Assembly (NCBI GenBank): GCA_032622095.1 | Contig: CP136069.1 | Span: 128,135,123 to 128,199,122 of the forward strand | Reading direction: 5' to 3' | DNA: 64,000 nucleotides | From: Siphonodentalium dalli | Lineage: Eukaryota; Mollusca; Scaphopoda; Gadilida; Siphonodentaliidae | Part shown: piece after piece, positions 21,441 to 53,120 of the stretch | How positions within the stretch are numbered: the first letter of the stretch is position 1 | Layout: the number at the start of each line of letters is the position of its first letter | Made by a program: the position numbers and the translations under genes | The notes under the pieces: generated by a model | What the model saw: only the letters and a program-made list of their open reading frames with translations | Databases searched by the model: none | Told to the model about the DNA's origin: nothing

Positions 21441-21449
21441 GGACGGACG

Positions 21450-21495
21450 CAGTCGACATAAATTTCGACTCAGTATATCATATAAATTCATCTGA
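21450..21495 (+). repeat. Left terminus of the 14-kb transposon
   Basis: CAGTCGACATAAATTTCG is followed by ACTCAGTATATCAT and AAATTCATCTGA. The first 18 bp recur, with single-base changes just after them, at 30069 and 32181, and inverted at 28648. The inverted copy matches over about 46 bp. Confidence 0.9.
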
Positions 21496-22294
21496 GTCGA
21501 ACAGGACTGGCCGGAATTCTATTTCCAGACTTGGGGATATACCAGGGAATTCCTTGTTTTGATTGGAAGCGGTACCAGAAAGCGATGGCCCCGATTAGCT
21601 AACCGATAACAGCTGCGCGTGTCCCGTAAAAATAGCCCAGTTATCACCATAAACAGGTGTGTATATTGATCTAAATTTAAATACTGGGCGGAGCGAAGAG
21701 ACGAGAAATTTTCATTTGAGCATGCGCACACATTGACAAATAAGCTTCCTGTTCAAAATATTTTTTTAAAAGAAAGACATTATTCATCGGTAAAACTCGT
21801 TTTCGACGCTTTTAATAATCACATCACAATAGGAAAATGAGTGTTACAGTGGACAAAGACCGAGACAATGTGTTAGTGAAGTGTGTTTCGTCTATCTTGA
21901 AAGAGACAGTTATTTCAGAGTTGAAATCTGAACAATTTCAAGTGTTGTCGGCAATATTCGTAAACAGGTGTGATGTTTTGTGCATTTTGCCGACTGGTTT
22001 TGGAAAGAGCCTTCCGCACCAAATATCACCATTTATTTTGAGGAAAATGGCTAACGGTGAACATTTCAAACAATACAGTGGAATGCATTTGATCATTGTG
22101 GCTCCTCTTAAAAGTTTGATGAGGGATCAAGTCAGCAGAATGGAGAAACTGGGTGTGTCCGCTGGATTTATTGGACAATCAGAGGACATTGATAAGAAAA
22201 TTGCAAATGGTGAACTTGAAGTCGTGTTAGGTAAGTCAGTATATTTTAGACTAATAGTTTAAAATAAACGGAAATATATCTCATCGGACAGGCT

Positions 22295-22470
22295 CTGTTC
22301 CGTTTAATATTGCACCATACAGCCTACATAATTGGCTACGGCTGAAGCAAACTGGGCCACAGCATACGTAGTGTTGCCGTAGCGGATTGCCGAAGCCAAA
22401 CAATCTGAATTAAGAGGGCTGCACCATACAAATTTTTCACCACAAATATGTATGGTGCAATACGGAACAG
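22295..22470. mobile_element. Small TIR element in helicase intron 1
   Basis: CTGTTCCGTTTAATATTGCA at the left pairs with the inverse of TGCAATACGGAACAG at the right, and CACCATACA follows on both arms. It is 176 bp with no coding capacity. No clear target duplication. Confidence 0.7.
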
Positions 22471-22835
22471 ACTACAGTGCAGATATCGTTTCGTTTATTT
22501 TGAACTAATTTAGACTTGTCCAAATCACTAATCAGTTATTTAAATTTGTATTTGCAAGTGAACAACTTGAACTAGTAGCCCGATTCCCCAGACAGGTGAA
22601 TCGTGTATTAAAGATTCGTGTTATGAACTATATATTAGTATTCACAGACCTGCCCAAAGAAACGAGCCTGCTGAATAAACGTGCTGGCTTACATTTACCC
22701 CTAATAATTATTAATAGTGCTGGAATTTTCACTATCATGACCAATTAAATTAATATTAAAATTAATAAACGTGCCAGGCTGCCAGCTTGTTTTCTATGGG
22801 AGGCCAAAATTCACATTTAATAATGAATTGCGCTT

Positions 22836-22955
22836 GAGCGCAATTGATTGCGTTTAAGCGCAAATACCACATATTGTGCTTAAGCTCAAATAGGGCATTT
22901 ACGCTTAAACGCAATAAATTACGCTTAAGTGCAATCAATTGCGCTTCAGCGAAAT
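22836..22955. repeat. Array of degenerate TTGCGCTTAAGCGCAA palindromes
   Basis: About six palindromic copies in 120 bp, each varying by one or two bases, with two more copies near the other end of the element (about 23860-23895). Their subterminal placement suggests protein-binding sites, but nothing here shows binding. Confidence 0.75.
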
Positions 22956-23264
22956 TGTGACTACTATCTAACCTACCTATAAACTATTAGCATGACCTGG
23001 TGTATCACCTAGCAACAAGTGATGAGCATTGGGCTAATTTTGACCTGTGCTCAACAGTCAACTATGAGTATGTGTTCAACAAGGAGAATCCCTAATTACA
23101 TATTATCAACATCCCTCTATCCAAAGAATTTATGTCGCCTTCCCGGAACTCTAGTAATTTTTTGTATGATGTTTTTAATGTATTTTTGCACATATTTTAG
23201 CCTTTACTATGGTAATATCCTATACATGCATGCGGTGTCACGACATGAGGGCTTTCTTACCTCA

Positions 23265-23400
23265 TACAGTAATGCTCTAATTAATCGACTTCTTAACCAC
23301 AGCAGAATTATGGGTAACTTTTCAGGATTTAGTCGGAAATATGACTTGTTGCCATTCATCGAAAAGCTCTTGAGAGTCGATTAATTAGAGCATTACTGTA
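23265..23400. mobile_element. Hairpin MITE, Tc1/mariner-like, copy 1
   Basis: Ends CAGTAATGCTCTAATTAATC and its inverse, bordered by TA on both sides. The core ACCACAGCAGAATTATGGGT, running into CAGGATTTAGTCGGAAATATG, is shared in inverted orientation with the copy at 29549. The TA border and CAGT ends fit Tc1/mariner-type mobilisation. Confidence 0.75.
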
Positions 23401-24350
23401 TGATTTACTTATTGACTTAAATCAGGGGGAAAAAACCCTATTTTCATATTATCAGCATCCCTGTCCAAAAAATGGTGTGTAATTACTGGAGCTTTGGTGT
23501 CTCAGTCCTGGAGCTCTAGTTTTTCTTATTAAATCAGCATCTCATGCACAAATCTATAGTATTTCCATGATCATATAGTGTGAATGTGGTGTCACCGAGG
23601 GCTTGCTACCCTCATATGGTGTGCCTGTATACTCGAAAATTGAAGAAAATCAATGTTGCCCCGACTAATACAGAAAGTAATGCTATTGCGAGTAGCCCCA
23701 ACTAATATATACAGAAGATAATATAATGCTATCACGAGTCGCTCCAACTAAAACAGAAGGTGATACCGTACTATTGCGAGTCGGCCATTTTGATAACGGA
23801 GTTGGGCTAGCTCCCTACCCATCCAAACCAATGAAACCAAGAGGTGACATGTCAATTGATTGCGCTTAAGTGTAATTATTTGCGCTTAAGCACAATTAAT
23901 TATTAAATGTGAAATTGGCCTCCCATAGTTTTCTGGCATCCAAGAGTACATACATGTGTATATAATACATTGTTATTAGTACAACACACATGTTGTTCAT
24001 GTATGTAATTTGTAAACATATATACACATTATTTATTATTGGAATAGTTAGTCAAATTGTAAATGCTTTATACGTGCTTAAAAGAACACAGTAGTAAATG
24101 CACATGAACTGACTCCACTGAGTGAGGTCAACATGGGTGATGATCAATGATATTTATTATTGTTATAAAACATGAGTTCACATTACTGAACATCTTGCTA
24201 TTTTTCACATAATTGAACGTTGAACACTTTCATTGTAGGCAGCCCAGAAAGTTTGGTTGGCAACAACAGATGGCGTGATGTTCTTTTAGACAAATACAGA
24301 GGAAAAGTCCTGTGTATCGTGGTAGATGAAGTACATACAGTTGCTAAATG

Positions 24351-25155
24351 GTGAGTTCATTGAAAACTGTTGGAATCTGATATTAATGGCAGATCATATC
24401 ATCATAAGAACATTTTCACACGACGTTGAACATTACTAGTATTGTTCAGTACAGGGGGGGGTATTAATAAAAAATAGTACCCATATGTGCATCAGACCTC
24501 GAGAGTACAGTTACATGTTCACTAAGTACACATATGTAAGTTACTGACTTACTGCGTCTTGTATTGATGTACTCTATACATTGTCAATTTTGTCATATCT
24601 GGTGAGGTTAGAACTATATCAGGTGAGGAGCCAAGTTTTATAGTATTTATTAAATTTGTATTGTGAAAAGGTAAAGTATTAGCAACTATTCGTCAACTAA
24701 TTTATTTATTAAATCTTTGAAATTATTCAAACATATTTTTAAATGATCATTACATGTAATACATGATAATCATAAGGGTTATTAAAATATAGTTTAATAG
24801 TTTTGATTTAGTATAATTGATGGAATCAGATGGGTTAAACAATTCAGCGATTACTTTGAGGTGGGAAAACATTATCTTTTTTTTAAAAGGTGGAAGACAC
24901 CCAATTTGATTTTATGTTAGGTTATTTGAAATTTAATATGGGTTAACCAGTTTAGTTGCTCGTTAAATTACCTAATACAGTGTTATATACACCCAATCAG
25001 AATGTGTGACACAGTGCCTGATGGTGTATTCCATTTAACATACAATCGGTGCAATGGCACTTCCAAGTTTCATGGCCTATTCTGTGATAGACTTCCAAAT
25101 TGAAAACAAAACTGATATGTCAGATGTGTAATGTTTATTTATATTTTCTTTCCAG
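24351..25155. other. Helicase intron 2, no internal gene
   Basis: AT-rich intron from GTGAGT to a TTTCCAG acceptor. It contains a short G run at 24454-24460 and no recognisable insertion. Confidence 0.6.
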
Positions 25156-25952
25156 GGGAGAGAAACAAGGTGGACAATCTAACCCATTTCGGGTGTGGTT
25201 CAGACATGTTAGTGAACTTCGATCAGTTCTGCCAGATGTTCCCATCCTATGTCTGACGGCAACAGCATCCCTGCAGACACAGAAAATTATTAAAAACTCG
25301 TTAGAGTTAGCACATGATGTGATGGTGATTCAGAAGGATACCGATAGGTCAAATATTAAATATATGGTGATGCGATGCAGTCCGAATGTCGGGGAAAATC
25401 TGTTCTGGCTTGTTGACCTCATCAATGACAACAAGATGAACATCGACACGATACCGAGAATGATTATTTATTGTTCATCAATTCTTAAATGTGGCAATAT
25501 CCATGACTTTCTATTGAAGGAGTTGAGTGAAGAGTTAAAGAAAAAAAACTTCCTTGCACAATTCCATTCGAAGACTGAAGAACCTGTCAAAGAAGATATT
25601 TTGGAATCAGTGAGTGAATCCGATAGTCCACTGAGAGTAATTATTGCAACAAGTGCGTTGACATGAAGGGGACATTCTTAGCACTTCATTATGGTCCACC
25701 AGATGATGTTGACTGCTTCGTGCAAGAAACAGGTCGAATTGGAAGAGAGGGACAACCTTCGCTCTCATTGTTGATGTTTAATGGGTCGATGCTGAAAACA
25801 TGTGGTGAATCGATGAAAGACTATGCAAATAACAACACTGAATGCAGGCGGATATTCTTCCGATTGAACATCGACTTCACATTTTTAATGAACTTTCAGG
25901 GTCAGACACTGATCAATCATCATCGACATCATCATTATCATCAACAGAATAA

Positions 25953-27432
25953 ACGATATTGCATCAGTGATTTATTGAATTGTATACTACAAACGTATAC
26001 ATGCTGTAAAAATTGTTTTAAATATATAACATTCAGTCAATTGAATAAATGTGAAAGGGCTTTAAGCCTTAAGACACGTACATATTTTTTATTGTGTAAC
26101 TACTCAACGATTCGACTAGCAATTTTATTCCATTTTGACCGACAAAGATGTTCTCCAAAGTGGATTGAACATTTCTGACAGGCAAATGTAATAATTTATT
26201 ATAATTATGATTCCTATGCCATTCAATATTGATTTGCCAACTACCGGTAGTCTGTTTGTACAATGTACAAACTTGACGATAAATTCAGATTGTTTCAATA
26301 ATCACTGCAGCTGTCGGATATGACATGATGCTCAGGGTCCGCGCTGGACCGAAATTTACTTTTGCCAAATGAAAATATTTTTTGCCAAATTCTGTTAGAA
26401 TTTGCCAAATGTTATCATTGATGCTTTGTTAACAGAATACATACTCTCTGGTGCCAAATAAATATGTTGGCTGAGTTAAAGCGCCGACATATTTCTGTAA
26501 AATTATTAAAGGGGTAGTCCGAACTCGAAGCTAAAAAAATAATCTTGTTTGCAACAGTTCAGTGGCTAAAATATTAAAGAAAATATCTACTATGAGTCAA
26601 AGTTCGGTAAAATAACCAAACTATGGCATAATGTATACTGTTGGTGATATAGCACTAAAATAATAAATTGCGGATCTGCAACTTGTTATTTCAGTGCTAC
26701 ATGTATATCAGCAACGTACATCATGCAATATTCATGTTTATTTTACAGAACCTTGATGGGTGGTATATATTTTCCTCAATATTTTAGCCACTGAACCATT
26801 GCAAACAAAATTGTTTTTTTTCACAAAACATTATGCTTCGATTGACCGTTTAACATTGATGCCATTTAGATGATATGCATATATCATGACCAAATAATAG
26901 TACTGGGCAACAATTTCTTCCAAATTTGATAAACATGATCGCACGTTTATAATTATTTGGCACCCAAATCGCAAATGTTGTGTTCATTTGCATGCGATAG
27001 TATCCAGACATATGTGTATCATATGCATGCATACATAGGGTAGATTAATATAAATGAAGTTCACATGGCTTTAATTGTTCAATTGGCCCCATATCCTATT
27101 CTGATCCCAAATATTTTTTATTTAAAAGCTATTTGGAACGAGTAGCTAACAAAACGCATCTGCGGTGCCTCGAAAATTCAGCGATGGGAAGTCAAAATAA
27201 AATTAAAACCAGGTACCTTAATTCTAAATAAAATCATTTTAAGGCGAGGGATTTCTTTAATTTCTAGAGACTTTTAGGCTACGCATAATATACAAAATAA
27301 CATGTATATATATTATGTTTTCACACCTATATATACAACCACAAGCAACTCGTTCCTAACTGCTTTAAACAAAATAATTTGGTGGTCCGAATGTGATGTG
27401 GGCCTTTAATTAAACCAATGCGAAAACCAGGC
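25953..27432. other. Spacer between the two convergent genes
   Basis: AATAAA at 25948 and 26044 could end the helicase transcript. The piece at 26335-26410 carries TTTGCCAAA words plus GCGCTGGACCGAAA, shared with 16970 and 18700. A family B MITE relic follows at 26508. Nothing coding is supported. Confidence 0.55.
26508..26830. mobile_element. MITE family B, diverged copy
   Basis: Begins TTAAAGGGGTAGTCCGAACT and shares CAGTTCAGTGGCTAAAATAT and TTGGTGATATAGCACT with the copies at 31448, 33935 and 34118. The inner right side (CCACTGAACCATTGCAAACA) is the inverse of the left. The right outer end has decayed. Confidence 0.7.
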
Positions 27433-28602
27433 TTAGTTACAATTCTGTTTTTGCTGTAACAGAAAATCATTAAACTCTGCAGCATTGACTTCAAAGATGT
27501 TTCTCATGTCACTCTTGATGTTTTTGTAGGGTTTTCGGCCAGCAACATGTTGCATAAGCCGTCTGTCCTTTATGTCAGACATTATTTGTTTAACACATTT
27601 TTCTCTTATTGGCCGCGCATGAAATCCCATTTTCCTCTTTACTGAAGATACTTCATCAAAGTTTTTGTTGATTTTTCGAATTGCGTCGAAGGCCTTTGAA
27701 AGGGTTTGGCAAGATTTGAAGTCTTTACTTCCTTCACAGTCACTTTTCAAATCACGATTTATCAACTCGACCCAACCATCAATAGATTCATTTGATGATT
27801 GTCCTCCTTTTATATTAACTGTTCTGTTCCATGTTAATCGAAATGATGTTTCTGCTGGTAACAAATACTCCACAGACGCGATTAATTGAAAGCTGGAGAG
27901 GCAATATTTAAATTTCTTTGTCATGTTGAAGAGCAAAATTTCGAACTTGGAGAGTCTGACATTGCGCTTTCCATCCCCATCATCGATACTTGTCTGCAGG
28001 TTGAAATAAATAGCCGAAATGGTGAATAACGCTTTCTGATAGCAAAACACCTGGTCATCTTGTGGACTTTTCTTTATCTTTTTTGTTTTTGGTGGAATGA
28101 TTTGTTGGTGTTGTTTTTTTTTGGTGATTTCTCAAGGCAGACAGATTAACATACGAACGAGTGCAATCTTCAATTTTACATTCAAATTTATTCTGGTCAT
28201 TCAAATTGAGAACATTGTTTGACTCCAGTTGGTGTAGTTCATCCCGGAGCTTTCCAAACAAGTCTTCAGAGTTATCAAATACAAATGAATCCACAATTTC
28301 TAGAGAAGAAATCTCCAAAAAACTCAGAAGTTCAGAACTTTCCATGGTCACTAATCTATCTGGTAGATCATCGACCAAGCTATCCATTCCTAATTTTGAC
28401 AAAAATAGTTCGCAGCACATTGCATCAAATATAGTCTGTAAAAAGTTTTTACATGCCCTTAATTTGCTTTTTGGTTTGTTTGAAACATCATGGGCTTTCA
28501 ATTCATTTTTGTAGTATACCAAACTACCGACATCACCAGCAGAATTGTCCTTGTAGAAGATTTTCCATATTGCCTGAAAGAACATTATGAATATATGTAT
28601 AT

Positions 28603-28648
28603 TCAGATGAATTTATATGATATACTTAGTGGAAATTTATGTCGACTG
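28603..28648 (-). repeat. Stray inverted copy of the transposon's left terminus
   Basis: Reading the minus strand from 28648 gives CAGTCGACATAAATTTC, then AGTATATCAT and AAATTCATCTGA. This matches the left end at 21450 with about three differences over 46 bp. No matching right end lies between here and the exon-6 acceptor at 28573, so this is a solitary end. Confidence 0.85.
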
Positions 28649-28651
28649 CTC

Positions 28652-28905
28652 CAAGCCTTGAAATAGTGTGTCTGTCATTTGCAGAATGAGGTCCCCAGAG
28701 GGTGAATTTAGTGATGCTACCCCGCATAGCGGGCTAGGAACACCAAATTCACCCTCTAGGGACCTCATTCTGCTTACAACGCAGCAGAATGAGGTTCACA
28801 GAGGGTGAATTTGGTGATGTTAGCCCGATATGCGGGGTAGCATCACTAAATTCACCCTCTGGGGACCTCATCATGCAAATGACAGGCACACTATTTCATG
28901 GCTTG
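28652..28905. mobile_element. Nested double-hairpin element in DUF6589 intron
   Basis: Outer arms CAAGCC-TGAAATAGTGTG and TCTGTCATTTGCA are inverted at the right. Inside, the GAGGGTGAATTT segment occurs four times in alternating orientation, separated by CCCGCATAGCGGG-like centres. It could fold as a cruciform or clover. It begins four bases from the stray transposon end. Confidence 0.85.
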
Positions 28906-29548
28906 TTCGGCTCCAGCGAAAAGTGACCATGCCATTTCAGCAAGTTGTATAAAGTGCTTCTCCATTCCAACATGCATCACATTCTGTATTTATTACACAC
29001 CCCATTTGAAATAACAGTTTTTCATTGAATTGAACGAAAAAATATATTTCCCAATAAAAAGCACAATGTATATAACTGTAAACAAATAATGTCATGACTC
29101 ATACTACACATTTTTAGTGGTTATAACAGGATATAAGATATATTATACCGTATGTTAATAAATATCCTGTAAGTCTCACATTTATAAGGATTAAATGGGT
29201 TGATAGTGCCATCCCAGAGTTCATACAATTGAGTGTGTAGAATGAGATTGTATATGGACTGCAGGATGGCAATATCGGCCCATGTAATCCTTCCTATAAA
29301 TCAATAACATGATTGTTACCCCAGGTGGATATTTGATATCAAAATATCAGATAATAATCGAGAGAAAATATGTTCCAAAAATACTGCGAACATGCATTAA
29401 GAATTACAGACTATTGAAATTATCACATTCATATGCTACTTAATGCAATGGATGGATACCGCAGATTAAAATATATAAGCTACTTTTAACAGTAACACAT
29501 TGTTCATCCCTAACAGTACACTAAACAAGTGGAATAATATATCTGATC

Positions 29549-29677
29549 TACAGTAATGCCCAAAGTAATTGACCACTTAACCACAGCAGAATTATGACCA
29601 TATTTCCGACTAAATCCTGAAAAATTACCCATAATTCTGCTGTGGTTAAGTGGTCAATTACTTTGGGAATTACTGTA
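29549..29677. mobile_element. Hairpin MITE, Tc1/mariner-like, copy 2
   Basis: TA-bordered, ends CAGTAATGCCCAAAGTAATT and its inverse, arms of about 45 bp. The core is shared with the copy at 23265 in the helicase intron. Confidence 0.82.
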
Positions 29678-30068
29678 CATGCAGACACACATGGCCGTGT
29701 TAACTTTTAACACAGGATTATAAGATTATTTATTTGCTCTGGATGAAATATGGATTAACATTCAACCTTTCCAGCCGAAATTAAATGGACAGCCAATCGA
29801 CGGGTGCGCTTCTCAGTCAATACAAAATACGCTCTCATATTTTGGATGTAACTGACGAATCAAATGTCTAGATTCGTACTACTGGTGTACAACATAAAAT
29901 ATATTTATCGCATAGTTATGACTAATTTCATAATCCCATAATGTAAATATTGTTGATGTATACATGTATTTATATACTCACATTGATGTTTCCTTGTCAA
30001 CCTTATATTGACACGGCAATAAATGTATATAATAGTTGTATCCGCTGAAGTTGGAACACCCTATTTTA

Positions 30069-30137
30069 CAGTCGACATAAATTTCGTCTCAGTAATATCA
30101 TAGAGTGGAATTATTACGGAGATGTTCGCGTCGACTG
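30069..30137 (+). mobile_element. 69-bp minimal derivative of the 14-kb transposon
   Basis: Begins CAGTCGACATAAATTTCG and ends GAGATGTTCGCGTCGACTG with almost nothing between the two ends. The 9 bp on each side are identical: CCTATTTTA at 30060-30068 and 30138-30146. This small element therefore inserted with the same duplication length as its parent. It lies in the last intron of the DUF6589 gene. Confidence 0.93.
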
Positions 30138-31447
30138 CCTATTTTATAGGTCTTGTCCATTTTATTTAGTTTATAGACTTACATCTAAATTATTCATGCT
30201 TCTGTGGAGATCCTCTGATTTTGGTATTAACCCATCAAGCTTTTGAAGAGGGGTAGTTGTCTCTTTTAAACTAGCCATACACCTCTTTGCTCCCTGCGCC
30301 CGTTCATCGGTTAGCCAGTCACCTCCTAGGAAGATAGGCTCTATGGTTTCAGTGCCAGGTGTGCTCACTTGTGGAGTGAACTCTTTGGTGAGTGTCTTCA
30401 TGAGCTCAATCATATCGGCAGTCTTTGACTCATTTATTTCTTCCAAGCCCAGGACATACTGAAGAACAAAATTTAAAAGTATTTAGTCAACATGTTGTAT
30501 TATCTCAAAGACCGCCCAAAAGAAACATTGATGTTAATATATTTCTACATCCAATCATCCATAAACTCATACTGATCAACCAAATAGTAATTTCTGCTGT
30601 CTTAGAGATATATAACAACCAATATAGAGGATCTCCTAACAGGTACATGTAACATTTCAGTTTTCAAATTAGAAGTTTGATAAAATTGGAAGAGAGTGAT
30701 TTAAATTTATTAAACTTATGTCAGTCTATAAATTGTCAGATTACTTTGTGTACACAGTACACCATTGATACTGATTTTGTTATTATAATAAAAATGTGTT
30801 CTTATCCTAATCCATGGACTCGTCATGATATGGCCTAGTTGCTAAAGTGACTAATCAATCCTAATCCATGGAAGTTTTTATGCGACAAATTGAAATGGTG
30901 TGATATATTTATTAGTTATAATTATTCTTCACATGTACCAGGTTCACAAATAATTATGTAAATAATGTCTGAAATAAGTTTACCTGTTCAGACTTTTCTT
31001 CATTGCGTCGGCCATTGGATTAAAGTATGTCTCTGGAAAGGCTGTTTTTCTTGACTTCAGAAGCTTCGTTAGTTGAGGCATGTATTCTAGTGTTCTAGAT
31101 ACTATCAGATATGCTATCTCAGATGTCACGAGTATTTGGTCTGTTTTTGATGGTATCCACTCAATATTCTCATGCAGGCGAATCTCCTTAAGTGGTTGAA
31201 TACATTCCAAGCCATCACCCTTCACACGATCCACAAGCAAAACGCTGTTGAAGAAATGTTGATCATCCACTCGTCTATCCGAAGTGAGATATGTCGGGAC
31301 GATTCTCCTGTCCCAATTGTCACCGGCCAGACTGTATTTCTTGAAATCTGGTGATGGTGGTACAGATGTGACTATCCTGCAAATAAATGTCATTGACAGC
31401 ATGTCATATTATGGAAATTTCGTCCAAAACATGAAAACATTCCCAAT

Positions 31448-31620
31448 TTTAAAGGGGCAATCTGGACTAGAAACAACACAATTTGAAAAAATAGTGTTAT
31501 TTGAAACGCTTCAGTGGCTAAACATATTATACCACACGCATGTTGTATGTTGGTGATATAGCACTGAAATAATATATACATGCACAAATTTTATTTAGAG
31601 TCTGGACTAACCCTAGACTA
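31448..31620. mobile_element. MITE family B, left-half copy
   Basis: Starts TTAAAGGGGCAATCTGGACT and contains GCTTCAGTGGCTAAACATAT and TTGGTGATATAGCACTGAAA. The right half is missing. It lies in the intron between exons 3 and 4 of the DUF6589 gene. Confidence 0.7.
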
Positions 31621-32180
31621 TTTAAAAAAAAAATCCATGTATTTGTTGTATTATTGCCAGTAGATATATGGATTACTTTAAACATATTTTAGTCTGGTGA
31701 GCATGACTGTACTTGTGTATTGTTAAGGACTTGGGGCATATTCGGGTGTAAAGAATTTTCCATCGTTAACTAAGAATTTATTCTTCCTCAATTATCCGAT
31801 CTTGTGAAATCACGTTTGCTGGAATGTAAATTACATTAGTTAGTGAAGTTATACAATACTTACATTCCTGAATTGTTTTCACATGATCTTTTCAAAGAAG
31901 ATGTCCATTCGGTGACTAATTTGTCTACTTCTGCAAATTTTCGTCCAGCAATCGCCTTGATCTTAGCATTCGAAGTCTCACGTGTTACACAAAATCCTAT
32001 CTTTTGTAGACGCTGCTGGGCCTAGAATGATATTCAACAATATGTAGAATGACATTTAACAATATAATGAGATGATAAACATCTTGACACCTAGATGCGA
32101 CTGATGCATTATAGAACATACAATTTACGCCTACATGCATTTATGAACATGTAGGTGACATTGTTGTGTATAGTCATATG

Positions 32181-32938
32181 CAGTCGACATAAATTTCGGC
32201 TCAGTATATAGAGGATATGAAATGAGTGTTTCTCTCATATGATATTTATGAAACGAGTCTAAGAATTTTCAGTTTTCTCGAGCCTGTGGCGAGAGAAAAC
32301 TTAAAATTCGTTTCATAAATATCATATTAGAGAACACGAATTACATATTCTAGTTATCATATGACACCTATAAATTTATTATGATGTCCAAATGATGTCC
32401 AAAACGCACACAAATCACTAAATAGCTATATGACATTGGCAGCAAAAGGTTAATGTGACGTCACTTCATTGCACCGGAAGCCCAATTACACCTGGTGAAC
32501 TAGCAGAAATAATATGCACGCAAAGATATAGTGCACTATTCTGTTCTCAGTTTGTGACATTATATCGTATGTTTATTAGATCAATACGAATTACATATTC
32601 TATTTATCGTATAACAATGTCCAAAACTATATATTTCAAGATTATAATTGCGAGTATTTCGGCATCGCGTTAAGTCGTGTATTTGACGCGCACGAATTTG
32701 ACCTGCATTTAGTCAGAGATGCGGCTCGGCCCCCGGCTGCCATTCAGAACCCACTTTTTATCAACAAACCAATCAAATTATCGGAAGGTGATATGGACTA
32801 GTAGTCCATATGAAATTGATTTATGACATACATGTAGTTTCCAACGTAAATAATGATTGAGTCGCATGATCAATCAGTATATCATATTGATTCATTTGAA
32901 TAATATTGGAATTATTACCGAGATGTTTACATCGACTG
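32181..32938 (+). mobile_element. 758-bp derivative of the 14-kb transposon
   Basis: Starts CAGTCGACATAAATTTCG and ends CCGAGATGTTTACATCGACTG. The flanks AGTCATATG (32172-32180) and AGTTATGTG (32939-32947) agree at 7 of 9 positions, a decayed duplication. An internal inverted repeat (about 32227-32337, centre GAGCCTGTGGCGAG) lies near the left end. No transposase remains. It is located in the DUF6589 intron between exons 2 and 3. Confidence 0.85.
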
Positions 32939-33934
32939 AGTTATGTGTGGTTTCATATAAACATTTGAAATAAGGTATGATGTCCAAATATATCTCAGCA
33001 TTTGATATTTCAAAAGCAATTTCAATTTAGATGTCTCCGAAATAAAAGAAACTTCGTTTTGAGTTTGTAAACAACGTAATCAATTGAAATGTAAAGTGTA
33101 CACATGGGTGTTCTAAAGTATTCTAAATACCTTGGAGCTGCATCCACCATTACTGAGGATGATACCCGTCATGTGCTGTAGTAGATTCATTTGCATATTT
33201 CTATGCCTCAGAGCAACTGCTGCTGTTGTTGAAACTCGCCTCCTATTAACATTGTCCTGTGTCGATCATCCCACAATAGCACCAAGAATTTTACATAGAG
33301 TGGGTGCTACAAGTTCAAGTTCATCATAAATTTTGTCCCATTGAAAGGTGAATAGGGTCTCTATGTCCTTACTTCGCAGAATTGAATCAGTGTTTTTCGA
33401 ACATATTTTGATGCATTCTTTGTTTAGAATGGTGCAGAAGTGTTCGATCATTTCTCTTTCGCACAAAAGAGAACATTTCTTGACCAGGCCCATATGATTT
33501 TTGTACACCATCGATGAAATAATGCTCTGTTCCACTGGATCCACTATGGTGAATTCTCTCTTTTTCGAAGGATAGATGAATGTGACCTGAAATTGCAATG
33601 TTTTATATTTATTTACATCATGTTTTTTTATAAATATAAAACAAATTTAATATAGATATAAATATTAGTGTTATCATACATTGTATACAATATAAATCTA
33701 TCTACATTTATTTATAGGGGTGTAAAATAAACAGTGGCCTACATGCATATAAAGGGCTACATATACAAGAACAGATATACTGTACATGTAAATGGGGCTG
33801 CTTAAATATACATGAGGGTACATACAACTCGATACAATTTTGTCGCCTTCGTACATATCAAAATGTGCCAAATTAAATATTTGTTTGAATTATAAACATG
33901 ATCTTTTTAAGAATTAAATGCAAAATATGGTTGA

Positions 33935-34117
33935 AGGAGCATTCCGGGCTCAAAGCAAAACAATTTTGAAAAAATAATCTTGTTTGGAACAGTTCTATGG
34001 CAAAATATATTATGGAACCTATATACCACGTGTCTGTAAAATAACAAAAATATTGCATGCTGTATGTTGCTGATATAACACTAAAATAAGAAATTGCTTT
34101 ATAGATTATGAAATGAT
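33935..34117. mobile_element. MITE family B, diverged half copy
   Basis: Shares TTGTTTGGAACAGTTCTATG and TTGCTGATATAACACTAAAA with the family. It abuts the full copy that starts at 34118. It lies in DUF6589 intron 1. Confidence 0.6.
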
Positions 34118-34611
34118 TTAAAGGGGCAGTACGCACTCGAAGCAAAACAAAATGAAAAACAATATTGTTTCGAACAGTTCAGATGCTAAAAATATTAAAG
34201 AAAATATACACCATCAGTCAAATATCCGAACAATTACCAAAATATCACATAATGTATGTCGGTATACGACTGTGAAATTGTATTTCACAACACGTAGTGT
34301 TATATGTTGTATTTATATGAACCAATAAAGAGCTTTTCTCACTGTATTAATACAGTCGTAAATAGAACAAACCGTATATTAATGAAGCTATATATTGATT
34401 ATGTGTCTCAAATTTGACGCTAGTAAGTCAGATTCCTCTTTCTCTTGCTTTTATATACGCCAGATCAGATATAGCATAGTAGCGTCGGAGACAAAATCGG
34501 AATTTGATGGGTGGTATATATTTTCCTTAATATTTTTATCCACTGATCCATTCCAAACAAGATAATTTTTCCTATTTTTTTTTTGCTTCCGAGTGCGTAC
34601 TGCCCCTTTAA
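34118..34611. mobile_element. MITE family B, full copy (TTAA-flanked)
   Basis: AGGGGCAGTACGCACTCGAA and the inverse TTCCGAGTGCGTACTGCCCCT form the ends. TTAA borders both (34118-34121 and 34608-34611). It is 494 bp long, fills much of DUF6589 intron 1, and ends about 50 bp from the exon-1 donor. Confidence 0.88.
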
Positions 34612-35462
34612 TGATGCCATGTAAACAGTGAGTTACAGTGTATACAAAGAGGAGAATACTCACTTTTCATCTGTTTTTTCCCCAAATTCCAGACATTTTT
34701 TCGCTTTCGGTTTTTTCTTTTCTTTCATTGGAGTCTTTATCTTGGTTGTAATGTCTTGCAGTTGTCCGAGTCTCAACCGTGGACTGTCAGTTGTCGTACC
34801 AACACTTTGAATTCGGTCACACAATAGGTTGGTGAACGATTTCAGAGGTGTCCTTTTAATTGTTTTGAGTTCCACAGGAATATTTTCAGAACCTTTTTCA
34901 AGCTCCAAGGAAATCAGTTTATTTTTCTTTGCACATTGCCCATCTGTATACGGCGAACGCAATAGTCGTTTAACTCGGTCATGTGGCACTGATTTAAAGT
35001 TAGTTTTAATAGTTGTATTGATTTTGACCAGCTGCTTCATCAAAGAAAAACACTTGTGACAAATGGCATGATTCTGGTCGGCGGCGAAATAACCGGTGCC
35101 GATATTCAGTGTTCTGTAAATCTCTGCCTCTCGTAACATTCCAATACAACCTTCCGTTAAAACATGTTTATTTTTTATATTATGTTCCAATCTTCCAGTT
35201 TTTGTAACATGAGTCCCTTCAAAAGAATAGTCGCAAAGCATACATGATTTAATTTCACTTTTTAAAATAAATTTAACAGGTGTCGGTACCGACGCCATGA
35301 TTCCGGAAGCAAGCTTTACTTTGTTTACTTAAATTGATTGACGCGCATAAATTATTCCTTGTTTGGAATGTCTGCGACATCAGTATGACGTCACGATATT
35401 GGGGGGAAGCCCACAGTTCTGGAAATGGGTTTTTACATGAATTCGTGTCGACGTAATATTAT

Positions 35463-35491
35463 AATTATTACGGAGATGTTTACGTCGACTG
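35463..35491 (-). repeat. Right terminus of the 14-kb transposon
   Basis: Ends ATTACGGAGATGTTTACGTC-GACTG. The same block closes the small elements at 30137 and 32938. A second GTCGACGTAA lies inverted 40 bp inside (35447-35456), making a local palindrome that could be a second transposase contact. Confidence 0.88.
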
Positions 35492-35641
35492 GGACGGACG
35501 GAGACATCGAATATATATACCCACCGAACTTCGTACGGATGCATACTAATACCAATCTGTGTAAATATACACTCATATTCATGCTGATACTGTTCTGTAT
35601 ATGTGGGTATGTAATTCAATCCAGACTGAATAATATAAAGT

Positions 35642-51510: not shown

Positions 51511-51964
51511 AGGTTACAGTGAAGTAATTATTTCCCATAGGCCTCAGTGTTAACATATAATGGCCTGCAGCCCTGACTATCCACGAATTGTGATAAATGA
51601 GTGCATGGTCACCAGGATTGGCATCTGCGCAAAGTTTCTGCATGAAAAAGATCATATCGTCGAGCATGGAATGTACCTTTAAATTTGGGGATTTATAATC
51701 GAGAGTCAGAATTGCATGAAAACAATATTGACATTTTTTACCTCACACTAAAAAAATTAAATCTAGGAACCACGTGCTTTACAATGTGCCAATGTTTTGT
51801 TTGGAGTCTGAAATTTCAAGAGGAGTGATTGCATGTATTTTATATGTTTAAATATCGAAACTACTATTAACCAACCAGAGCCCAGAATTTTTTTAATTCT
51901 CTCCTGCATCTTGGTCCAAAATCCGTTGGAGGGCGCTACCAATCGAATTACTTCACAGTAACCT
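51511..51964. mobile_element. Family D element, copy 2, interrupting a LINE
   Basis: Same ends and body as copy 1, in the same orientation, with a small insertion (GAGGGCGCTA) near the right end. It cuts the reverse transcriptase frame of the minus-strand LINE. The open frame continuing from the LINE into this element is fused sequence, not protein. Confidence 0.87.
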
Positions 51965-52618
51965 GTATACGCTGCCTGTTCTCCCGAAAACCCACACGCT
52001 ACTTGCTTATAATATAACTTCTTATAAATTGACAAGAGTTGTTGCCATAGAGCTATTCTCCCAATTTTGTCAAATGCTTTTTCATAGTCGACAAATGCGC
52101 AATAAAGGTTTGAATTTATTTCCCTTGTCAATTCACTTAGAATGTGTAATAGACATATGTTGTCAGTTGTAGAATAACCTTTTCGAAAAACCTGATAGGT
52201 TTTCGAGAAGTGTTGCATTTTCCTCAACACACGTGTACATTCTATTATAAGAATGTTCATGAATTTACCAAAGCAGCTTAATAACGTTATGGGTCTATAA
52301 TTTTTTGGGACCTTCGTGTCTCCCTTATTTTTGTATGATGGTACTATTGTTCCTATTCCCCACGCGTCGGGTATACATCCTGAGTCTAATTTAATATTGA
52401 ACAGTGTACAATAAATATCTGCCATGTTGTCCGCTGTTGCTTTTATGTATTCATTGAGGACCATATCTTCCCCAGGCGACTTATTATTTTTCAAACTTTT
52501 CAAGGCTGACTTTTTTTCTTCTACAGATATTGGCCTGTTAAATACGCTATCATGATCCAAAGAATTACAATTGTATTCGATGTCGATATCTTGAGAGTGT
52601 GTTACAGAGTTGAGATCT
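51965..52618 (-). pseudogene. LINE ORF2, first half of reverse transcriptase
   Basis: Part of the composite minus-strand LINE (58312 to 51965). Visible blocks in order: ISVEEKKSALKSLKNNKSPGE, YIKATADNMADIY, YRPITLLSCFGKFM (RT motif 2) and VFRKGYSTTDNICLL. Then comes AFVDYEKAFDKI, catalytic motif A with its first aspartate. The frame is then cut by the family D element, so YADD and the thumb are lost. Upstream it continues across a family C insertion. RT family resembles CR1/L2-type elements; RT identity is certain, clade is not. Confidence 0.9.
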
Positions 52619-53120
52619 TTAAAGGCACGTGCGGCCTTAGTTGTCGAAAATATTCATATTTGTTCCAATCACCGTAAACATAAAAACATTAAAATGCATA
52701 CAGTTTCGTTCATATATACCATGACTATCGCGTAAACAGCATGTTATCATAAAGACCTACTATATTTTACCTAAGCAAGAGCCTGATTGTGTTACAGAAG
52801 ACAGAACAATGCTACTGGCTAATCACACAAAAATGGCATAAACGCTCTTTATTTGTTCCATATCAGGAATTCACCAACAAAGAACGCTCTTTATGTTTAC
52901 CATCATAATATAAATAAACACCAGAAAAGTAACTTTTTATGCCTTTGTTTACAAAACAATGGTCAAACAAATGACAATAACATACTGTTTATGCGATATT
53001 TCTTATTTGTATACGGACAAAGTCTGTCTACATTTTGATGTTCTTTCTGTTTGTGGCGGTTTTTGACGGGGGCAAATATTTTTACAGGATACCCACCGCC
53101 AAGGCCAACCGTGCCTTTAA
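52619..53120. mobile_element. Family C element, copy 2 (TTAA-flanked) in the LINE
   Basis: AGGCACGTGCGGCCTTAG to AAGGCCAACCGTGCCT, between TTAA at 52619-52622 and 53117-53120. With the element and one TTAA set aside, the flanking LINE codons read EYFKDLNSV without a break. This shows both the target duplication and the exact borders. Confidence 0.95.

Follow-up and report, generated by a model that had tools for sequence, protein, structure and literature searches.

The 64,000-nucleotide stretch of the Siphonodentalium dalli genome analysed here (the window; contig CP136069.1, positions 128,135,123 to 128,199,122) carries a 14,042-bp element, at 21450-35491, that is very probably a transposon copy of the AcademH kind, complete at its ends and dead in its proteins, whose movement would have depended on a DDE transposase and a helicase. 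As a first-pass annotation had proposed, the element holds two multi-exon genes facing inward: a gene for a RecQ-like helicase on the plus strand and, tail-to-tail with it, a gene of the Pfam family DUF6589 on the minus strand.

Element ends and target-site duplications

The inverted ends have the form CAGTCGAC(A/G)TAAA. The left terminus, at 21450, reads CAGTCGACATAAATTTCG, and the right terminus, at 35491 and read on the minus strand, CAGTCGACGTAAACATCTCC; a test for inverted terminal repeats in the window element found them, with CAGTCGACRTAAA ends. A perfect 9-bp target-site duplication (TSD), GGACGGACG, abuts both ends (21441-21449 and 35492-35500). The first-pass annotation had called this a real transposon with exact boundaries and a perfect 9-bp duplication outside them, and both statements held. 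The window contains CAGTCGAC six times, where 0.52 occurrences would be expected: at the two outer ends, at both ends of a nested 69-bp copy, at the left end of a nested 758-bp copy and in a lone piece at 28603-28649.

The host genome (2.23 Gb, 9 contigs) was searched with the left 401 bp, giving 64 matches from the best 40 of 535 candidates, and with the right 401 bp, for which the best 40 of 505 candidates were scored. Forty genome stretches were fetched. Under the pairing rule applied, the end pair was present in 31 and missing from nine, of which one (L019) merely continues another stretch, while the others are truncated or altered or lack coverage. Adding three copies from the window brought the end-paired set to 34, and 9-bp direct repeats flush with the ends were perfect in 22 of them and within one mismatch in 30. 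Three copies share flanks with another; setting these aside left 31 independent events, with perfect 9-bp repeats in 19 and at most one mismatch in 27. Perfect repeats of 3, 7, 8 or 11 bp were found in none of the 31, of 4 bp in one and of 10 bp in one (L036). The four events failing at 9 bp are L036, L037, L038 and the nested 758-bp copy. In a mispaired-flank control 2 of 930 combinations matched, both between L047 and L053, which have common 9-mers and differing further flanks and were both kept in the census. Copies breaking elsewhere, or flanks devoid of a 9-bp duplication, had been named in advance as grounds for abandoning the transposon; instead, 31 of the 40 fetched stretches keep both ends at identical points and 27 of the 31 events carry the duplication within one mismatch.

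Fifteen of the copies measure 500-575 bp, and their mean similarity is 97.3%. At C6:213-214 Mb, three copies (L022, L023 and L024) lie in a GAT-repeat context with similar flanks; because the flanks are alike, they probably descend from a single insertion that local duplication has multiplied.

A genome search with the joined flanks of the window element (54 matches listed, from the best 40 of 1032 candidates scored) identified the insertion target as a dispersed repeat. By our own count, 35 of the 54 listed matches span the join without the element. Six such sites, all paralogous and not allelic, were aligned (L088-L093). L088 (88%) reads TACGGACGGACGGAGACAT, with GGACGGACG once only; in L090-L093 three extra bases follow a single GGACGGACG, and in L089 part of the 9-mer is gone. 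Multi-exon genes with introns are also what one would see if host genes lay between repeats by chance, with no mobile unit. The uninterrupted sites, the TSD census, the identical ends on many copies and the recurrence of the same gene pair at other loci (see below) refute such a host-gene cluster, to which we assign practically no probability.

A RecQ-like helicase gene and a DUF6589 gene

Exon coordinates are given in Table 1; the splice sites of both genes were read from the sequence. The plus-strand gene has three exons, the third running from 25156 on, with GFGKS, DEVH and LTATAS motifs, and is by its profile matches a RecQ-like helicase gene. It matched TIGR00614 with E=1.1e-40 and 139.8 bits, without reaching the model cut-off of 219.8, and human WRN with 1.1e-18, which bears out the RecQ-type helicase of the first reading; the spliced protein matched PF00270 (E=3.1e-16). 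The window frame ends before the last motifs, and PF00271, not reached in this truncated helicase, is present at the relative L082.

About six exons make up the minus-strand gene, which spans 35300 to 27433. A query of its concatenated exons from after an in-frame stop matched PF20231 (DUF6589) over profile positions 17-405 of 410 (E=1.4e-34, 120 bits against a gathering cut-off of 27), so that the earlier DUF6589 assignment now rests on a match over nearly the whole profile. Pfam gives no function for PF20231. A megablast search against phages returned no match, and a search of one paper library for DUF6589 or PF20231 no relevant report.

We infer that the DUF6589 protein is a DDE transposase with a putative RNase H fold; its proposed catalytic acids lie in three conserved motifs. 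The window shares SLAGDNWDRR with loci A and B, and shares GGDWLTDERAQ with seven relatives; in L071 and locus B the exon with the latter motif has breaks. Near GWxEL, the residues N, G, D, E and K are invariant in nine aligned rows, two of which are 99% alike. A C2H2-like finger precedes the proposed catalytic E (PF00096 E=0.0049 and 0.037, both below the cut-off). This finger type is found in the window copy, L058, L061, L064 and L065; L081, L083 and L084 have no obvious finger. In the DUF6589 protein of L082 (1161-2165) a PHD-like finger (PF00628 E=4.4e-4, below the cut-off) stands where the close families have the C2H2-like one.

Damage to the window copy and its sister

The other long copy identified, L017, spans 9,118 bp with a perfect TSD, ACAAGTAAC, and is 96-99.5% like the window element over six colinear blocks. 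Relative to L017, the window helicase lacks 13 bp at 25656, which breaks the frame, and 109 bp at about 25857. The window DUF6589 gene is interrupted by an in-frame TGA (33268-33266) and has lost 1 bp close to one exon's end; its last exon, which in L058, L061 and L065 is one frame of 397-404 residues (397 in L058), contains a frame slip. L017 lacks window positions 26465-29646 and thus the last DUF6589 exon, and its helicase has two stops. Neither copy is intact. The first-pass description of a complete 14-kb transposon therefore stands for the ends and fails for coding capacity, and with both genes broken the window copy cannot serve as the complete type specimen it had been taken for.

Sister families

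The same genome holds two sister families. Searching within set limits for inverted ends accompanied by a duplication gave a single hit for the first, C4:228797745-228811937 (14,193 bp); it has ends CAGTCTGAGTGAAC / CAGTCTGAGTAAAC and a perfect 9-bp TSD, GGTGACATG. Each of its matched DUF6589-gene and helicase exons, RecQ-Zn region included, has a stop-free frame, judged exon by exon and not across splice joints. Three further copies of this type were compared over 2 to 3.6 kb and are 98-99% alike there. A second element, C8:38135507-38148111 (12,605 bp), has ends CAGTCTTATTAAAA / CAGTCTAGTTAATT and a perfect 9-bp TSD, GCGGATGAT. It ranked first among the 51 hits of a looser scan. Because the first score was equal for four hits, the call is based in addition on its CAGTC ends and on its position just outside both genes. 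Open frames were read in its helicase exons and in the last DUF6589 exon; the other exons were matched, not read. At a third locus, C1 locus B, matching ends (CAGTCTGGAGTAAACTACATACCC) lie 13.9 kb apart and one DUF6589 exon has a frame change. CAGTC ends are thus shared by the window element and three further long loci. For the question of what the helicase does, the two sister families are better material than the window copy.

Tail-to-tail pairing across the genome

The last DUF6589 exon gave 36 genome matches (75 candidates, all scored), which fall into 26 loci, and a helicase exon gave 39 (83 candidates, all scored) in 36 loci. The best DUF6589 matches beyond the window's own are 57% identical. 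A helicase match lies within 20 kb of 17 of the 26 DUF6589 loci, against a mean of 0.005 pairs under random placement, and the two genes are tail-to-tail in all 17. Of the 17, five sit clustered on C2 at nearly equal distances and another four are almost identical copies; the independent cases therefore number fewer than 17. The pairing of DUF6589 with a RecQ-like helicase is old and fixed in orientation. The consistent tail-to-tail arrangement strengthens the view that the DUF6589 protein would be the transposase and the helicase its partner.

Four of the unpaired DUF6589 loci were examined over 4 kb (L081-L084). L081 and L082, which share 20-23% identity with L058, add two divergent cases to the pairing, since RecQ-like pieces in the same convergent layout occur there (PF16124 1e-9, PF00271 1.4e-14); in L083 and L084 no helicase piece was noticed among the longest frames listed for those 4 kb.

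Pieces of the helicase exon at C5:259.2-259.9 Mb and C5:227.8-228.9 Mb share 85-94% identity with that of the window and lie more than 20 kb from any DUF6589 match. Several stop near query residue 116; they are perhaps amplified fragments.

Classification

AcademH elements have inverted ends, Kolobok elements have TTAA as their TSD, and MuDR/MULE elements make duplications of about 9 bp. The AcademH lineage of Academ DNA transposons is reportedly the subject of Kojima 2020 (Mob DNA 11:15). A passage of PMC10045372 gives TSDs of 9 or 10 bp for AcademH and of 3 or 4 bp for AcademX, relating the difference to helicase versus nuclease, and one in PMC10799480 ties DEAD and Helicase_C domains to AcademH, KolobokH or Helitron. 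In the excerpted text of PMC10294476, Academ is almost confined to bivalves among the molluscs compared, which is no sure guide to the present host. The window element agrees with AcademH as described there in encoding a helicase, seen in the PF00270 and TIGR00614 matches, and in its TSDs, seen in the 9-bp counts and the one perfect 10-bp case of the census; no tested trait differs. The earlier suggestion of an AcademH member rather than a new superfamily is thereby supported.

AcademX, which belongs to the same superfamily if the AcademH placement holds, combines a nuclease with TSDs of 3-4 bp in the cited passage, whereas the window element has a RecQ-like helicase and 9 bp. We rejected it, with perfect repeats in 0 of 31 events at 3 bp and 1 of 31 at 4 bp compared with 19 of 31 at 9 bp; no nuclease Pfam hit was obtained in the exons scanned.

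A Kolobok-type element carrying a RecQ helicase, such as KolobokH, has precedent, since PMC9587614, in the section consulted, describes KolobokH as encoding a RecQ helicase and the red-algal Kolobok-1_CCri as encoding one on the complementary strand, which resembles the layout in the window. The transposase family differs by Pfam, however, the minus-strand gene covering nearly the whole DUF6589 profile, and the window-type duplications are 9-mers of mixed sequence, perfect 4-bp repeats being limited to the single event noted above. On these grounds we rejected Kolobok as extremely improbable. A MuDR/MULE-type element with an acquired helicase would share the TSD length of 9 bp, but neither the exons nor the concatenated protein contains a MULE Pfam domain, and the pieces of the sister families scanned gave no MULE-profile hit; we rejected this origin too, as very improbable.

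DUF6589, a family abundant in fungi, might alternatively constitute a superfamily of its own, with the helicase and the 9-10-bp duplication convergent with AcademH. Likeness of the transposases forms no part of the basis for the AcademH placement, and RecQ helicases were recruited by Kolobok lineages too, according to the same section of PMC9587614. A helicase together with a 9-10-bp TSD is nevertheless the very combination of traits stated for AcademH in the passage of PMC10045372, and AcademH is itself reported from fungi in that of PMC10799480, so that we consider a separate superfamily unlikely.

Several observations weigh against the AcademH-type DDE-transposase/helicase account. The element was filed as a new AcademH member by its helicase, TSD length and inverted ends, and compared with that lineage by description only. 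Protein-database searches found no homologue. L037 and L038 have no TSD at their flanks, the flanks of the nested 758-bp copy agree at just 7 of 9 positions, and C1 locus B has no duplication beside its matching CAGTC ends. No RecQ match lies within 20 kb of nine of the 26 DUF6589 loci; of the 36 helicase loci, 19 are without a DUF6589 match nearby, several of these being short pieces.

Proposed mechanism

In the transposition scheme that we favour, GDNWD and GGDWLT would each supply an aspartate (D) of the catalytic triad and GWxEL its glutamate (E), which a zinc-finger cassette precedes in several copies. The DUF6589 protein would bind the CAGTC ends and excise the element, and insertion would proceed via two strand transfers offset by 9 bp or, occasionally, by 10 bp. 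RecQ enzymes run 3'-to-5'; the helicase might open the ends, or clear an intermediate of transposition or gap repair. We propose that the gene pair is inherited together because the helicase aids transposition or repair.

This scheme would give a likely function, that of a transposase, to a Pfam family to which none is assigned. Within one genome the helicase partner stays tail-to-tail beside DUF6589 genes just 20-57% alike, and a role of the helicase in transposition is therefore testable. A more speculative idea, which we regard as unlikely, is that DUF6589 represents an uncharacterised class of DDE transposases, possibly a separate superfamily, linked to a RecQ-like helicase and bearing an exchangeable zinc-finger cassette between the second and third acids, where a chromatin-reading module may help to choose targets.

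Nested insertions and other features

About 2 kb of the length of the element is due to nested insertions (Table 1). A 1.2-kb insert and the 758-bp copy both contribute length that is missing from L017.

Table 1. Features of the element and its insertions, by window position
Feature	Position	Strand	Remarks
Left TSD GGACGGACG	21441..21449		From sequence; single copy at uninterrupted paralogous site L088
Left-type terminal sequence CAGTCGACATAAATTTCG...	21450..21496	+	From sequence; genome matches to left 401 bp
Helicase exon 1, Walker A GFGKS	21837..22230	+	PF00270 on spliced protein
1.2-kb insert in helicase intron 1	22765..23968		Absent from sister copy L017
Helicase exon 2, DEVH	24239..24350	+	Sequence reading
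Helicase exon 3, approximate end	25156..25860	+	Frame broken at 25656; 109 bp missing at ~25857
Last DUF6589 exon, GWVELINRDLK (proposed catalytic E), C2H2-like finger	27433..28573	-	Frame slip near 28120
Lone 47-bp left-type end piece	28603..28649	-	96% like the element's own left end
Nested 69-bp non-autonomous copy	30069..30137	+	Perfect 9-bp TSD CCTATTTTA; same place in L017
DUF6589 exon, GGDWLTDERAQ...DLHRSMN (proposed second catalytic D)	30183..30458	-	Motif in relatives
DUF6589-gene exon, SLAGDNWDRR (proposed first catalytic D)	30984..31376	-	1 bp shorter than L017 near end
DUF6589-gene exon	31864..32021	-	Sequence reading
Nested 758-bp non-autonomous copy	32181..32938	+	Flanks AGTCATATG/AGTTATGTG, 7/9 alike
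DUF6589-gene exon with in-frame TGA 33268-33266	33131..33586	-	5' splice site tentative
First DUF6589-gene exon, Cys-rich N-terminus	34664..35300	-	No Pfam hit; junction to next exon uncertain
Right-type terminal sequence CAGTCGACGTAAACATCTCCGTAATAATT	35454..35491	-	From sequence
Right TSD GGACGGACG	35492..35500		From sequence

L017 retains only a remnant of the 758-bp copy, which is whole in the window. We had considered L017 as an empty site for it, and rejected this because a scrambled remnant is kept there. The 1.2-kb insert has inverted arms of about 57 nt (22807-22863 and 23860-23916) and is probably another nested element.

Two left-type ends (47 bp, 96%) delimit a possible smaller unit at 21450-28648, which was rejected: the DUF6589 gene crosses its boundary and the outer 9-mers mismatch. 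Adjoining the lone left-end piece is a palindrome (28652-28905) with 123-nt arms that are 91% complementary. A similar palindrome is present in L064 (986-1071), and that of the window for this reason looks like a dispersed repeat. Elsewhere in the window, the minus strand carries a reverse-transcriptase fragment at 51766-52653 (PF00078 E=1e-8).

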